This document shows, piece by piece, positions 11,560 through 64,000 of a stretch of 64,000 bases of DNA. Source of the DNA: Pomacea canaliculata (taxonomy: Eukaryota > Mollusca > Gastropoda > Architaenioglossa > Ampullariidae); assembly GCF_003073045.1 (NCBI RefSeq), contig NC_037591.1:39944589-40008588 (forward strand), given 5' to 3'. The translations under genes and the position numbers were made by a program. Under the pieces are notes generated by a model. The model did no database searches. It worked only from the letters and a program-made list of their open reading frames with translations, and was not told the origin of the DNA. Position 1 is the first letter of the stretch, and each line of letters opens with the position of its first letter.

Positions 11560-14500
11560 ATGGAACCAATGAAGACAATCTTGTTTTTAACCACAATCAT
11601 CAGAATCAGTTCTCAGCAACAATATGGAGGTAAAATGTGAATTTATGTTAAAAACAAAATCTGAAAACATACTTTTCCTAGCACCACTAAATAAAATGCT
11701 AATATTCTCTAAAGTACGATTGCCCTGTATTACGAGGCTAATTTTCTGTTCTGTATTCAATGTTTTCGTTTAAAATAGTTGCTTTGCTGAAGGGGTTGAG
11801 TGTTCGTGGTTAATTTTTACCCTTATAGTGGGTAGTTCCATTAAATTATGTTGCATCAATGACAATTTTTATTATCCTAAAGGATTTAATACATTTGATA
11901 ATTTTTATAGCTCCTTGTCCTAGGATGCATAATTCAAGATACCTGGGTTAAGGTCTTATCACTTATTTCCTCATTTAAAGATCAGAAGGTCTTTGATAAA
12001 ACTTTGGAGAAAGTGCGTTTGAGTGCGTGCATGAATCGTGTAATTGTTTTGTCCGCAGGCTGTGGAGGGACGTTCACGCAGCCTTCTGGTTCCTTTTCTT
12101 CGCCATCATATCCCAGCAGCTACCCCGACAATCAAGATTGCATCTACATCATCCGAGCGGCGCCTGGGCGTCGCGTGACCCTGACATTCGTGACTTTTCA
12201 ACTTGAGCCTGGCCCCACTTCCGGTGCCTGCCATGACTACGTGCAGGTGATGGTTTGTGATCATAGCCCATCACAGTCACTATACAGTAACATTACACAT
12301 TACAGAATCATGGAGTGTAGCACAAGTAAGATGATAAGTGCAAATTGTATCTTGCAGCTCAGTCTCTTTTCTTCGTTGTTCTCGCTGATGTTTCATAAGA
12401 AAATAAGTAAGTACATGTAATTCATCATAAATAATAGTCCATAAACTTCTTCTTTTCCTTCAAAGATTCGAGAAGGCGACTCTGTGGCGTCCCCCACTCT
12501 GGGTACCTATTGCAACACGACAGTTCCTCCTAAAGTAAGGTCAATGGCGAACACCTTGTGGGTCAAATTCTATTCTGACTCCTCTGTGTCCAAACCTGGC
12601 TTCCAGGCGACCTACTCCACAGGTTCGGGTCTTGAGTATCTCTCTGATCGCAAAATCACCGACATTCTGGCTTGAGCGTATGCGAGGGAGAAAGGTTTAT
12701 GCGACGTTGTAAACATGTTCTGTTTGTGTGTAGGTCATTATAATGCTGAGACTGTAACGGACTTATTTCGCCTTTGTTTTCAATAATATTTGCCTCTTTC
12801 CGATGTCTCTTTTAAAGTGGGTTTTATTTCCTATAAATAATGTTTTATCACGCCTTTAAAGTTATTGCATTTTGTACTTTGCTCAGCACTCCACGTACAT
12901 TCTGATTAATTCTCAATATATCATTCCGCAAAAGACTTTTGTGGTTGTGAAGAAGAGAATGGATTTCAAAAGGAAAAAAAACGCTTCAAGACTCAATCTT
13001 GACAGATGTGATAGAAGGGAGATAAGTATGCAATATCCTCAGTTCAGTTCGGTCCCTTGATTATACCACGAAATTCTATTACTCCGTGATGATACCAGTC
13101 AGTGGTAAGAGAGGATGTGTGCATGCAGCTGTTTACAAGCATCCTCAGAGCGGCCATTGCAGACCGGTGTCAATCAGATGAGGTGTAAAGGTGTCTCTCC
13201 ATTTTAAAGACTAACCTTTCAGATGTCAGTACATAAAGGCGATATAAAACTAACCAGTAAATTTCAGCTTCCAGAACCCGTTAATTAATTATCCGCTGCG
13301 ATTCGCACCTGCGATCAACGAGCGCTGATGAGAGTATACTACGTCACTTTGGTACATCATTTTCCACATTGCCTGCAGTCAACACCGATCACAGAGAGAG
13401 AGAAAGAATGAGAGACAGTCTGCATTTCTGGTGATTCTGAAAAACTGCCACTAGCACGAGAAATGCAGACTTTCAACGTCTGAGTAACCTGACCTGTCGC
13501 TCTGATTGAAGTGTCATGAATAGTGCACCAGCGTAGTACACTGTTAGCGTGACGTAATACACTGTTAGCGTGACGTAGTACACTGTTAGCGTGACGTAAT
13601 ACACTGTTAGCGTGACGTAATACACTGTTAGCGTGACGTAATACACTGTTGGCATAACCAGTGTGGGAAACCTATCCAAAATTGCTCTAATATGTGTGAT
13701 ACAGACACGTACATCTCAGAAGTGTTTTAAACTGCGAGCTTCCACTAGAGCAGGTTGACCATAGAAGTCATAAACATAGTAGTTGTGATTTTATGTTCAG
13801 GAATCATTCCCCAGAAGTTTCTGTTGATGACAAACACGTATCTCCATGCCATTCACCGCATGGACGTGGACACCGGAAGTAACTTCGTCATCCCAATAGA
13901 CGGCCTGTCAAACCCTATTGGCATCGACTACGACCCAGTGGATGGTCGACTATACTGGACGGACGTCATTGAAAAGACGATTCGCTCCGCAAACCTCGAT
14001 GGCAGTGGCGTGCGCCTCGTCAGGAATCTTGGCCCTCGTGAGTTCCTTGTCTCACAGACTCTCTCTCACACACACACACTGTCTCTCACGCCCATATACT
14101 CTCTCTCTATCTCACACACACACACACATTGTATCTCTCTCCTCTCTTTATCTCTGTCACACACACACCTACTCTTTCTATCTCTATTCAAAACATAAGC
14201 TGTTCACAAATTCATCAATTTTTTTCTTAGTGATTAATACCTGAGCATCAGTGTAGTTCACAATAAAGTAATTAAGGGTGTGCTTATAGACATCTAGGAA
14301 CCTTTATGGAAGAAAGGCGAATTTGTTCACAATTTTCCGCTGCGTTGTCTAACTCCAGTTCTCATCATACTTCAGCTCTTATGGAATTGTAAGTTTTAAA
14401 AGTACTCTTTGAATCTCTTTCATAGGTTCTGAGATTTCAAGTAATAGAAAGTCTTTCTGACCTCAACTCATCATGTCCTCTCGCAATAGGAAATGTTGTT

Positions 14501-17500
14501 GAAACAAAATTGCAAAGTATGGTTACCTTTCTCTAAAGTAGCATTTCAGATTGAAAAATAATGTTTATCATCCAGAGGCAATGCCGGATGGACTTGCAGT
14601 GGATTCAGCATCGAGGCTTATCTTCTACACTGATGCAGGAAATAACATCATTGCCATGATTGCCATCAGCAGCTACCACCACAGAGTTGTCGTTGATTCC
14701 AACCTTGATGAACCTAGGGCCATAGAACTGGACAAACTCAATGGGTAATGATGTTGCCTGTAGCGAACGTCTGACGATAAACACTTTTCAGTTTCTGAAT
14801 AGAAATCATTAGAGACTGTACAGAAGAAAAAAAGTAAACAGACAACACTTCACTGTGAGACGATAGTCCATATGTCAATAAAAAATAATAAGGATCGGTA
14901 TTCTTAACAACTGAACAACTTTCTCTGTCTCTGATTGTTTCTCTATTTGAAACACACACACACTTGTCTTCTCATCCTCAATAATTATCAAATTTGAAAA
15001 ACCCTTTGGAAGACGTAACATCTTAAACTAAATCAAAATTTCTTCTGTTAAATGTTATTCTTATTTGTCTGTTTGTCTGTCTGTCTGTCTGTCTGTCTGT
15101 CTGTCTGTCTGTCTGTATGTCTGTCTGTCTGTCTGTCTGTCTGTCTGTCTGTCTGTCTGTCTGTCTGTCTGTCTGTCTGTCTGTCTGCACCTTGTTAAAC
15201 AAAGGCTAAACGCGAATAGAAGTTTTTTTGGCGTTTGCACGGTGGCAGGGTGATGTACTGGAGCGACTGGGGCGCCACCCCTAGAATAGAGCGAGCCAAC
15301 TATGACGGCACTGGACGCAAGACTCTGGTGTCAGGGTTCCAGTACCTGCACTGGCCAAACGGTCTGGCTCTGGACACAGTCGGTGAGTCTCACTCTTACT
15401 CATCATGTCCGATGTAAAAGAGTTTCATCCTGTCTTTGACCGCCTCAACCTACAATGTCAGAAGGCCAGTCTTCTTCTATTTCTGATTTTTTCTACCAGA
15501 AATCGCTGTCTTACCAGATGCATCGTACAAATTCTGTGGTGGGTTCGTGCTCATCACTTAGCGGATATCTTCATGCAGATGTTTATATTCCTGGTTTTCC
15601 TTGTGTGCGTGCGTTGTACATGTGTATGCGTGTGTGCGTGTGTGCGTGTATGCGTGTGTGCGTGTGTGCAGCTGGAAGGCTCTATTGGGCAGATGGATTC
15701 GCGGACAAAATTGGCTGGACAGACCTGGAGGGCACAAATGTCTCAGTCATTACCTTCCTTCCAGGGAGACATATGTTTGGTCTGGACATTTATCTCAACG
15801 AACTCTTCATTACAGATTGGGGCATGAAAATGTAATTCTAGTGTTTGAGTAAATAATTTAATGACAACTCTCTAGTCGTCGGTGTCAAAGATTCAAAGAT
15901 ACGCTTGAGAGAATTGTCTCCATTTATTTCTTGTGGCAAAAGTGCATGAAGATGTTACTTTTTGTTCAGTATCACCATATTCTATCAGACACTGAATTAA
16001 ATAAGTGGATTAAATGGAAATTTTATTTAATATAAAGAGGTGTGTGTGTGTGTGTGTTTGTTACAGTGTAGTCCATGGTAACCAGATGTACGAGTCTGAA
16101 GTACTTAGAAGTGTAATGACAGACAACTTTGTGACTACCGCAGTGATTTCAATAGCTTACTTAATTAAATTAATTAAAAGGTTCCATTGACTGTCACAGT
16201 GTGCAACCGTCTACAACCTCCTACATCCATCGCATCAGTGCTGATGGGAAAGCTGTAAAAACTATTGGAAGTGTTGGTGGAAGATTAAATGACATACACA
16301 TCTACTCAGAAGAAATGGGTCTCAATGGTCAGTGGCTTGGTCTGTTTCCGCAGATTGTCTCAGTGAATGTTTCATGTCTTTTGATTTGTTTTCATCTGTG
16401 TGTACTACACATTAGTAAAGTCATAAAAATTATAAAAAGTGAAGTTGTAGAAACATGCTGCCTGTCACATATTACTTTCTGAATACATCTTTTATGCGCT
16501 TAACAGCTTACCGCAGGTTTGTTGTGAGCAAGCTTAAAGAATGTTTTAAGTAAAATATAGTTGAATTTATTAAGCTCGTAGTTCTACTGTTTCTATGCAC
16601 TGTAAGTTGACCTTAATAAGTTTTTCTGAAGAGTCACTTCTTTGCTTAACTTATTCACCACAAATCGCAGAACCGAATGGATGCGGCAACAACAATGGTG
16701 GCTGCGACTACATCTGCATACCTGCACCTGGGAACACCAGTCAATGCTTGTACCCGGATGGTATCTCTCCAGTCGTCACCAGTGTCACAACTACCATTAA
16801 CAGACCCACAACCACCACTACCAAACCCACAACCACCACTACCAGACCCACAACCACCACTACCACTAAGAGACCCACAAGCACCACTACCAGACCCACA
16901 ACCACAACTACCACTACCAGGCCCACAACTACCACTTACAGAACTAACTGTGATTTCAGCACAGTCGTAACTCCCATCAGCAGAGTCCCTGCTGGCTTCA
17001 CTGTGTCCCAGATGACGTCCACACAACTACAACTGGCGTCCATGACGTCACGTCAGGCGTCACCAACTTGAGTGGTGGCATCAACGCAAATCAGGGTAAG
17101 TGCTTCGTGATAGACAGATAACCAACGAAAGTTAACTTGTAAATCTGACTAGTCACTAGCCCTCTTCTCGTAGTCATAACGACCCAGAATGTTCGACATT
17201 GAAAACGGAAATCCTACGAGTACCTCGTGTGTTTGTGGAAGTTAGAGTTTTAAAAAAGCAAATATCATTTTTTTTAAAGGTTCCGAACCTTCCTGGCATC
17301 AGTCTACAGCTCATCATACTTGTCATCGGCACTGTTGTCGTCATCATCACAACTGCTTCATGCGTCACCATCATCATCATCGTCAAAAAGAAAAACCGTA
17401 AGATTGCGACAATTGCTCTAAACCTTCATGAGCATCATCACGCGCTATATAAATCCTACTTTTATTTTAATATTGTTTTTGCTGCTATTATAATTATTAT

Positions 17501-63700: not shown

Positions 63701-64000
63701 CAAAGTCGTGTGTTTTACACAAGCTTCTCCTAAAACTGAACATAAGTTTCTTTTAAGAGAAAGAGGGTATTAAAATTGTTAGAGGGAGAAAGAGGGAATT
63801 CAAATAGTTAAAACTTATTTACAGATTAGCCATAGCTAGGACGTTTACACAGTGGTCCCAAAAGGACTTGGAACCATTACATTGGAACTCCGATGGAACA
63901 TAATATAACTACTTCACAAGGAACTCACGAGGGCCAAGATTCCGGACTAGACGCACGCCACTGCCATCGAGGTTTGAGGAACGAATCGTCTTTTCAACGA
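60302..64000 (-). CDS. Receptor C: propeller, EGF-like, TM, multi-tyrosine tail (5' end outside window)
   Basis: Exons in gene order: >64000-63929, 63662-63494, 62890-62757, 62403-62241, 61991-61867 (propeller), 61593-61237 (EGF-like, stalk), 61088-60978 (TM), 60725-60534 and 60339-60302 (tail). All joins keep frame: 452 residues plus a partial codon. Propeller motifs are LIIYTD, VMYWSD, RVYWADG and LFVADW. The EGF-like part is [17 protein letters not shown] is [20 protein letters not shown] then KRRKR. Signal peptide and CUB are expected beyond the right edge. Exons 4 and 6 are nearly identical to those of A and B, the others are not. No break is visible. Confidence 0.8.

Follow-up and report, generated by a model that had tools for sequence, protein, structure and literature searches.

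A tandem array of CUB and YWTD-propeller genes in Pomacea canaliculata, with variation focused on the predicted ligand face of the propeller

Results

The window holds four genes of a larger tandem array

The window analysed here is a stretch of 64,000 bases from the gastropod Pomacea canaliculata (assembly GCF_003073045.1, contig NC_037591.1, hereafter C2, 45,157,847 bases; C2:39944589-40008588). It carries four paralogous genes, named A to D, that combine a CUB domain, a YWTD propeller, an EGF-like module and a transmembrane exon. A preliminary description of this DNA had reported a cluster of four such receptors. The four genes are real, but they are part of a tandem array of about 77 related units, which the window cuts. 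Array members were located by single-exon protein queries against the genome contigs (440,159,624 bases, 24 contigs). Genome-wide, the query with propeller exon E6 gave 102 matches (123/123 candidates scored), the E4 query 89 (112/112) and the EGF exon query 45 (56/56); for the CUB exon query, 150 of 271 candidates were scored. Between 39.519 and 41.394 Mb of C2 (1.87 Mb), we counted 75 E4 exons (27 on the plus and 48 on the minus strand, two rows from one frame-shifted exon being taken as one) and 74 E6 exons. Their pairing gives 72 genes, three unpaired E4 and two unpaired E6, i.e. about 77 gene units. The order of exons E4 to E7 is identical in all 24 cluster loci taken at gene length (L002-L025).

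On the same chromosome, a second region rich in CUB exon matches lies at 12.2-15.1 Mb, with propeller exons as well in two places (14.40 and 15.07 Mb). The relative at 15.07 Mb retains CUB and propeller exons, some as partial matches. Related propeller and EGF-like exons were also found on contig C11 (12.6-13.5 Mb), with no CUB in the single 7-kb stretch examined there (L026).

The genes share one exon plan and a set of domains

The shared plan comprises a signal-like exon (E1), two CUB exons (E2-E3), five propeller exons (E4-E8), an exon for the EGF-like module and stalk (E9), a membrane exon and tail exons, the last being known for D and several genes of class II (see below). Exon profiles and comparison between copies place E2 to E9 in the same order, with a transmembrane exon, in each of A, B, C and D, as the preliminary description had stated. 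It had also claimed common intron phases, which are 1,0,1,1,2,1,2,1. Across 24 of the 30 genes examined (L004, L006, L009, L010, L012 and the broken L017 were left out), in-phase splice sites were recovered for 171 of the 177 acceptors and 155 of the 157 donors; the misses include the broken E6 of gene B. The search was permissive, every AG or GT in the right phase being counted if it lay within about 45 bases, and the near-constant splice offsets are a stronger sign than these counts. The propeller of gene A has six YWTD-like motifs, counted by eye. Gene D, previously described as intact, is the only window gene open from CUB to tyrosine tail, as modelled; its CUB exons lie beyond position 64000, however, and no signal exon was found in the 3.1 kb scanned upstream. 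The E1 profile detected a signal-like exon for A and B only, the case of C not being settled.

A Pfam search with the joined ectodomain of A returned CUB (PF00431, 8.4e-31) and Ldl_recept_b (1.2e-23). The search of the joined D protein, which had been suggested as a check, gave the same two families (4.9e-29 and 2.3e-24), and L002 matched CUB at 3.9e-28. Both A and D have one CUB only, and Pfam reported in them no coagulation-factor or protease domain and, at E 0.01, no LDL class A (LDLa) repeat. The EGF-like module expected in E9 is present, but it has four cysteines and stays under the Pfam FXa_inhibition cut-off in A and D (19 and 18.8 bits, respectively, vs. 33.4). Compared with the PDB, gene A matches the propellers of LRP2, LRP4 and LRP6 (about query 119-424), LRP2 being the top match, and the CUBs of cubilin and neuropilin. 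The layout had been called non-standard: among the best 60 of 98 PDB matches none spans both CUB and propeller in its best stretch, although each domain taken singly has these well-known counterparts.

Three classes of array genes

A protein tree of 27 genes built on E3-E8, which is better resolved than single-exon trees, separates three classes. Class I contains A, B, D and L014a, with L024 and L025 adjoining it. C, L002, L015-L017 and L019-L023 form class II, which L018 adjoins (support 0.50), and L003-L009 and L011-L013 represent class III in the tree. Class III is the largest subfamily, with 46 of the 75 array E4 exons at a threshold of at least 83% identity to the probe. All of these 46 exons are open; one match at 74% identity, outside the class, has two stops.

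Variation in class III concentrates on the propeller face

In LRP6, the ligands DKK1 and sclerostin bind the top face of the propeller; the pocket residues are E51, D52, V70, E73, L95, E115, N185 and A201 in LRP6 unit E1 and R449, W465, W491, N493, H534, E380, R382 and H404 in LRP6 unit E2 (PMC7585440). Several residues of the two units coincide when placed on the snail propeller and L95/H404 was dropped (exon edge), leaving 12 positions in exons E4-E7. The class III alignment (220 positions) comprises 46 sequences for E4, 31 for E5, 31 for E6 and 11 for E7, E5/E6 having been taken for 20 of 35 further copies. Mean entropy is 1.85 bits at the 12 pocket positions vs. 0.43 bits elsewhere (P = 0.00002, the lowest value that this test can return). 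The seven positions derived from LRP6 unit E1 alone give 1.76 vs. 0.47 bits (P = 0.00004), and in eight control sets, displaced by 2-6 residues, the mean ranges from 0.10 to 1.07 bits.

We then compared nonsynonymous (dN) and synonymous (dS) divergence in class III, with intervals from a bootstrap over codons. At the 12 pocket positions, dN/dS is 2.28 (confidence interval 1.10-5.75), dN not being above dS in 1.2% of the resamplings. A 28-position face, picked after the alignment was seen, gives 1.68 (1.06-2.81), and the other 192 codons 0.59 (0.43-0.79). In class II, the entropy of the pocket positions shows the same trend, more weakly (0.99 vs. 0.53 bits, P = 0.018). These values point to positive selection focused on the predicted ligand-contact positions in class III, and less strongly so in class II. 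The preliminary description had placed the fast change in stalk and tail, with a kept ectodomain plan; in the largest subfamily, the sharpest signal detected lies on the propeller face, while no stalk or tail was found there.

Synonymous divergence changes from exon to exon

Within classes, synonymous divergence is patchy. In the four pairs opposing (A, B) to (D, L014a), dS is 0.137 in E4 and 0.016 in E6, vs. 0.90 in E2, 0.86 in E3, 0.61 in E5, 0.79 in E7, 0.91 in E8 and 0.74 in E9. Between the class II core (C, L002, L016, L022 and L023) and L019-L021 (15 pairs), the low values are those of E5 (0.076) and E6 (0.071), vs. 0.52 in E2, 0.96 in E3, 0.97 in E4, 0.83 in E7, 0.93 in E8 and 0.36 in E9. 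BLASTN alignments between A and D are limited to exons and exon edges. Fourfold sites are heterogeneous among exons in all 12 such pairs tested (4/4 and 8/15; P from 0.0002 to 0.0092), and the longest identical runs of these 12 pairs were not reached in 2000 permutations. Four other comparisons are not heterogeneous: C-L018, A-C and D-C (P = 0.16-0.36) and L005-L009 (P = 0.07).

Codon constraint as the cause of the low divergence of E4, E5 and E6 was rejected, because the proportion of synonymous differences between classes I and II reaches 0.78 (E4), 0.73 (E5) and 0.42 (E6).

On these sequence comparisons, exon-sized gene conversion within classes would be the simplest account of the patchy divergence. 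Some results nevertheless fit a simple conversion picture poorly. The pairs A-L018 (P = 0.0036) and L003-L004 (P = 0.0026) are heterogeneous too, distant pairs have shorter yet nominally long identical runs (23-33 bases, P = 0.006-0.024), and the longest run of L005-L009 reaches 64 bases (P = 0.018).

Tyrosine motifs in the tails of D and class II

Tyrosine tails had been attributed to the four window genes. They were found in D and in C, where the last exon is frame-shifted, but A and B yielded no tail exon. The D-type tail profile has two matches only, in D and in its duplicate in L014. Acidic-tyrosine motifs occur in the tails of D, at its end, and of some class II genes: EEHIYQDFQSVYG in L018, EEHLYDDL in L015, DEHDYDDL in L016 and EEHDYDDF in one L019 exon. 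A different L019 exon and one L020 exon have EPDYDDF and EPCYANF, respectively, in their place. Inspection by eye shows no NPxY in the D tail or in the T2/T3 tail exons compared. The immunoreceptor tyrosine-based activation motif (ITAM) consists of two YxxL/I six to twelve residues apart, and the hemITAM of one YxxL after an acidic triad; by eye, the acidic motifs of D and class II resemble the latter form. Acidic tyrosine motifs of this type also recall Src-kinase substrates. In the last tail exon, dN is lower than dS in 14 of 15 pairs, the exception being L015-L016 (0.21 vs. 0.08), and the preceding tail exon shows the same in five of six pairs. Downstream of its membrane exon, L019 carries a tandem pair of similar tyrosine tail exons, possibly used as alternatives.

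For class III, the 5 kb downstream of E9 in the extended L007 and the 1.2-1.4 kb after E9 in L003 and L008 yielded no identifiable membrane or tail exon. Hydrophobic frames are present after E9 in L007 and L008. Class III proteins may be anchored in the membrane.

Gene coordinates, frame breaks and other features of the window

The exons of the window genes are listed in Table 1.

Table 1. Genes and exons of the array in the window (window coordinates)
Feature	Position	Strand	Basis and remarks
Gene A, E1-E9 and transmembrane exon	11560 to ~17400	+
A first exon E1, start codon, signal-peptide-like	11560..11628	+	E1 profile match; donor GGAG/GTAAAA (slash, exon end)
A CUB exon 1 (E2)	12061..12246	+	Exon profile; Pfam CUB
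A CUB exon 2 (E3)	12466..12621	+	Exon profile
A propeller exon E4	13803..14033	+	Exon profile; candidate conversion tract common to B, D, L014
A propeller exon E5	14584..14742	+	Exon profile
A propeller exon E6	15250..15381	+	Exon profile; candidate conversion tract, DNA identity 98.7% to D, 99.3% to L014
A propeller exon E7	15674..15820	+	Exon profile
A propeller exon E8	16210..16317	+	Profile match 1-36 of 39
A EGF-like part of E9, then Thr-rich stalk	16673..16762	+	Exon profile
A transmembrane exon, behind shifted frame	17295..17396	+	Exon profile
Gene B, E1-E9 and transmembrane exon	32350 to ~38230 (exons end 38228)	+	Exon profiles
B exon E6, frame shift at start	35742-35855	+	Exon profile, copy comparison
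Gene C	58307-51192	-	Exon profiles
C CUB exon 1 (E2)	58125..58307	-	Exon profile
C CUB exon 2 (E3)	57379..57531	-	Exon profile
C propeller exons E4-E8	54139..56678	-	Exon profiles
C EGF-like exon E9	53183..53272	-	Exon profile
C transmembrane exon, tail exons downstream	51192..51296	-	Exon profile
Gene D	from beyond 64000 down to 60535	-	Exon profiles
D CUB exons, outside the window (extended locus L001)	64678-64833 and 65170-65358	-	Exon profile
D propeller exon E4, truncated at the window edge (full exon reaches 64163)	63933..64000	-	Exon profile
D propeller exon E5	63496..63654	-	Exon profile
D propeller exon E6, candidate conversion tract	62758..62889	-	Exon profile
D propeller exon E7	62252..62401	-	Exon profile
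D propeller exon E8	61868..61981	-	Exon profile
D EGF-like part of E9, stalk towards lower coordinates	61502..61591	-	Exon profile
D transmembrane exon	60979..61080	-	Exon profile
D tyrosine tail exon	60535..60723	-	Exon profile

Gene A has one base fewer than B in the stalk, followed by a stop ahead of the membrane segment; in gene B, the frame is shifted where E6 begins, and the last tyrosine exon of gene C is frame-shifted relative to L015. The block carrying D and C has an inverted copy, the block L014a-L015, at a distance of about 155 kb and with 92.8-95.5% DNA identity. The ectodomain exons of D and C are open and those of their duplicates L014-L015 disturbed, while the last tail exon is shifted in C and retained in L015.

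Between genes B and C, a 100-N assembly gap lies within the array (48195-48294). Repeats in the window comprise a GC-rich minisatellite with a 68-base unit (22870-25440; 14.5 and 21.7 copies), a simple array of an 8-base unit (25443-25701; 32.5 copies) and a perfect GTCT array (31956-32253; 74.5 copies). The minisatellite keeps long frames open on both strands, which resemble no gene. A frame at 40804-41148 on the minus strand has, by eye, the look of a fragment of a long interspersed nuclear element (LINE) reverse transcriptase, with no Pfam match at E 0.01. Outside the window, contig C24 appears to be mitochondrial, with 12 TGA codons in the frame of COX1.

Discussion

A putative family of recognition receptors

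The array probably encodes a diversified family of recognition receptors, in which the top face of the propeller would read the ligand. The preliminary description had suggested a recognition receptor family, and the size of the array, the dN/dS above 1 at pocket positions and the exon-patchy synonymous divergence support this suggestion. In the mechanism that we propose, each receptor would bind its ligand by the top face of the propeller, at a site equivalent to that by which LRP6 binds DKK1 and sclerostin. Paralogues would differ at face positions, because selection would favour change there, while most of the propeller would be conserved. Short, exon-sized gene conversion would shift propeller exons between array members and so produce mosaic receptors. 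On ligand binding, a Src-type kinase would phosphorylate the acidic tyrosine motifs and SH2 proteins would be recruited, the site of signalling being probably haemocytes or barrier epithelia. In its fullest form, this would be an innate recognition system of a caenogastropod snail that has not been described before, with the propeller face as antigen-binding site, different pocket residues in each of the about 77 array members, exon conversion recombining blades and tyrosine tails signalling; we put this forward tentatively and hold it with some doubt.

Several points weigh against these proposals, which are drawn from DNA sequence. The LRP6 residues were placed by hand, via the xxPxG and post-YWTD motifs, and the description of the pocket in PMC7585440 treats A201, E380 and H404 as pocket neighbours or clash positions, not as stated contacts. 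Besides the late choice of the 28-position face, two of the shifted controls are nominally raised (-3, P = 0.038; +2, P = 0.0037), which may reflect an overlap with further positions of the face. Over all 220 codons, dN/dS is 0.80 (confidence interval 0.62-1.03). Change also extends beyond the face: by exon, class III dN/dS is 1.39 in E3 (seven sequences), 0.90 in E4, 0.42 in E5, 0.66 in E6, 1.20 in E7 as a whole and 0.57 in E8, so that the second half of the CUB may also change fast, and, of the five E4 columns that vary most, two are not on the face but near the start of the exon. In class II, the signal is carried by four positions in E4; of the remaining eight pocket positions, one is invariant and seven do not exceed 0.99 bits. 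Class III, which bears the strongest selection signal, is also the class in which no membrane segment or tail was identified. Finally, A, B, C (tail), L015 and L017 are broken, three E6 and two E4 matches have internal stops and one E4 is split by a frame shift; with several broken copies, relaxed constraint accounts for part of the change.

Alternative explanations

The same family could serve reproductive recognition, with receptors on eggs, sperm or reproductive tissue that diversify by sexual conflict or species recognition. Positive selection, homogenised exons and a stalk rich in Ser/Thr also occur in gamete-recognition genes, and no result on the array separates the two uses; about 77 units nevertheless seems many for a gamete receptor, and the acidic tyrosine motifs would rather suit a signalling receptor of blood cells. 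Immune use seems likelier than reproductive use, which we regard as unlikely. Still less probable is an expansion of endocytic LRP-like receptors for the uptake of lipoproteins or other ligands, in which dosage rather than recognition would be selected. In its favour, the propeller finds its closest counterparts in LRP2, LRP4 and LRP6, and the CUB finds them in cubilin and neuropilin; two of these, LRP2 and cubilin, act in endocytosis, and YxxF/L-type motifs could be sorting signals. However, A and D lack LDLa repeats and the D tail lacks NPxY within the limits given above, and selection on dosage does not predict a dN/dS above 1 at pocket positions.

A last alternative is that uncollapsed haplotypes and dead copies inflate the array and that its variation is mostly neutral decay. 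The inverted D-C and L014-L015 copies, the common frame breaks and the assembly gap in the window would fit such an effect, and part of the description of the published P. canaliculata assembly mentions a filtering of heterozygous contigs by size and identity (PMC6129957). Yet the sampled class III copies differ from each other, with a mean dS of 0.08-0.24 in E4-E8 (0.03 in E3), and their E4 exons are all open at the class cut. Moreover, the dN/dS of 0.59 off the face implies that most of the sequence is or was constrained. We consider this explanation very improbable, and favour recognition by the propeller face.

YWTD propellers have been described chiefly as conserved units that serve endocytosis and the control of Wnt signalling. 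Diversifying selection on the same ligand face across tens of paralogues would be an uncommon use of this fold for recognition, and it would make receptor specificity testable at about a dozen positions. P. canaliculata is an invasive pest and a host of Angiostrongylus cantonensis (PMC6129957), and the array is a candidate locus for its immunity and for published signals of balancing selection. In a study of 173 P. canaliculata genomes, an 'LRP2' gene is ranked 'top 1' in Southeast Asia and 'top 6' in East Asia for balancing selection (PMC11417965). This gene may belong to the array, a label that could fit an array member because LRP2 is the top PDB match of gene A.

Comparison with known systems

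Like the YWTD-EGF modules of LRP2, LRP4 and LRP6, its best PDB matches, the array protein has a YWTD propeller followed by an EGF-like unit, and its most variable positions fall largely at the equivalents of the LRP6 ligand pocket. Unlike the LDL receptor family, the array genes have one propeller with a CUB before it and no reported LDLa, an EGF-like unit with four cysteines instead of six and, in D, a tail without NPxY. Their CUB is complete, as in cubilin, neuropilin and MASP, but it is single and joined to a propeller, with no protease or coagulation-factor domain reported. A CUB ectodomain on a single-pass receptor is also found in LRP3, LRP10, LRP12 and NETO. These receptors have LDLa repeats and no YWTD propeller, whereas the array genes show the reverse, a propeller and no reported LDLa.

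Resistance-linked clusters of diverse membrane proteins are also described in the freshwater snail Biomphalaria: PTC2/GRC, the receptor protein tyrosine phosphatases of SudRes1 and the GRL101-like G protein-coupled receptors of SudRes2, most PTC2 genes and the GRC genes encoding single-pass proteins (PMC7494358, PMC12297450). The terms CUB, YWTD and propeller are absent from the main texts of these two papers. In the part of the Biomphalaria haemocyte proteome considered, reelin is the sole entry annotated as 'lipoprotein receptor binding'. In the open-licence literature, we found no paper on the combination of CUB and YWTD propeller or on its expansion.

FREP, Sp185/333 and VCBP are large and fast-changing immune families of invertebrates. 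They are built from other domains, whereas the variable unit of the snail array is the face of a propeller.

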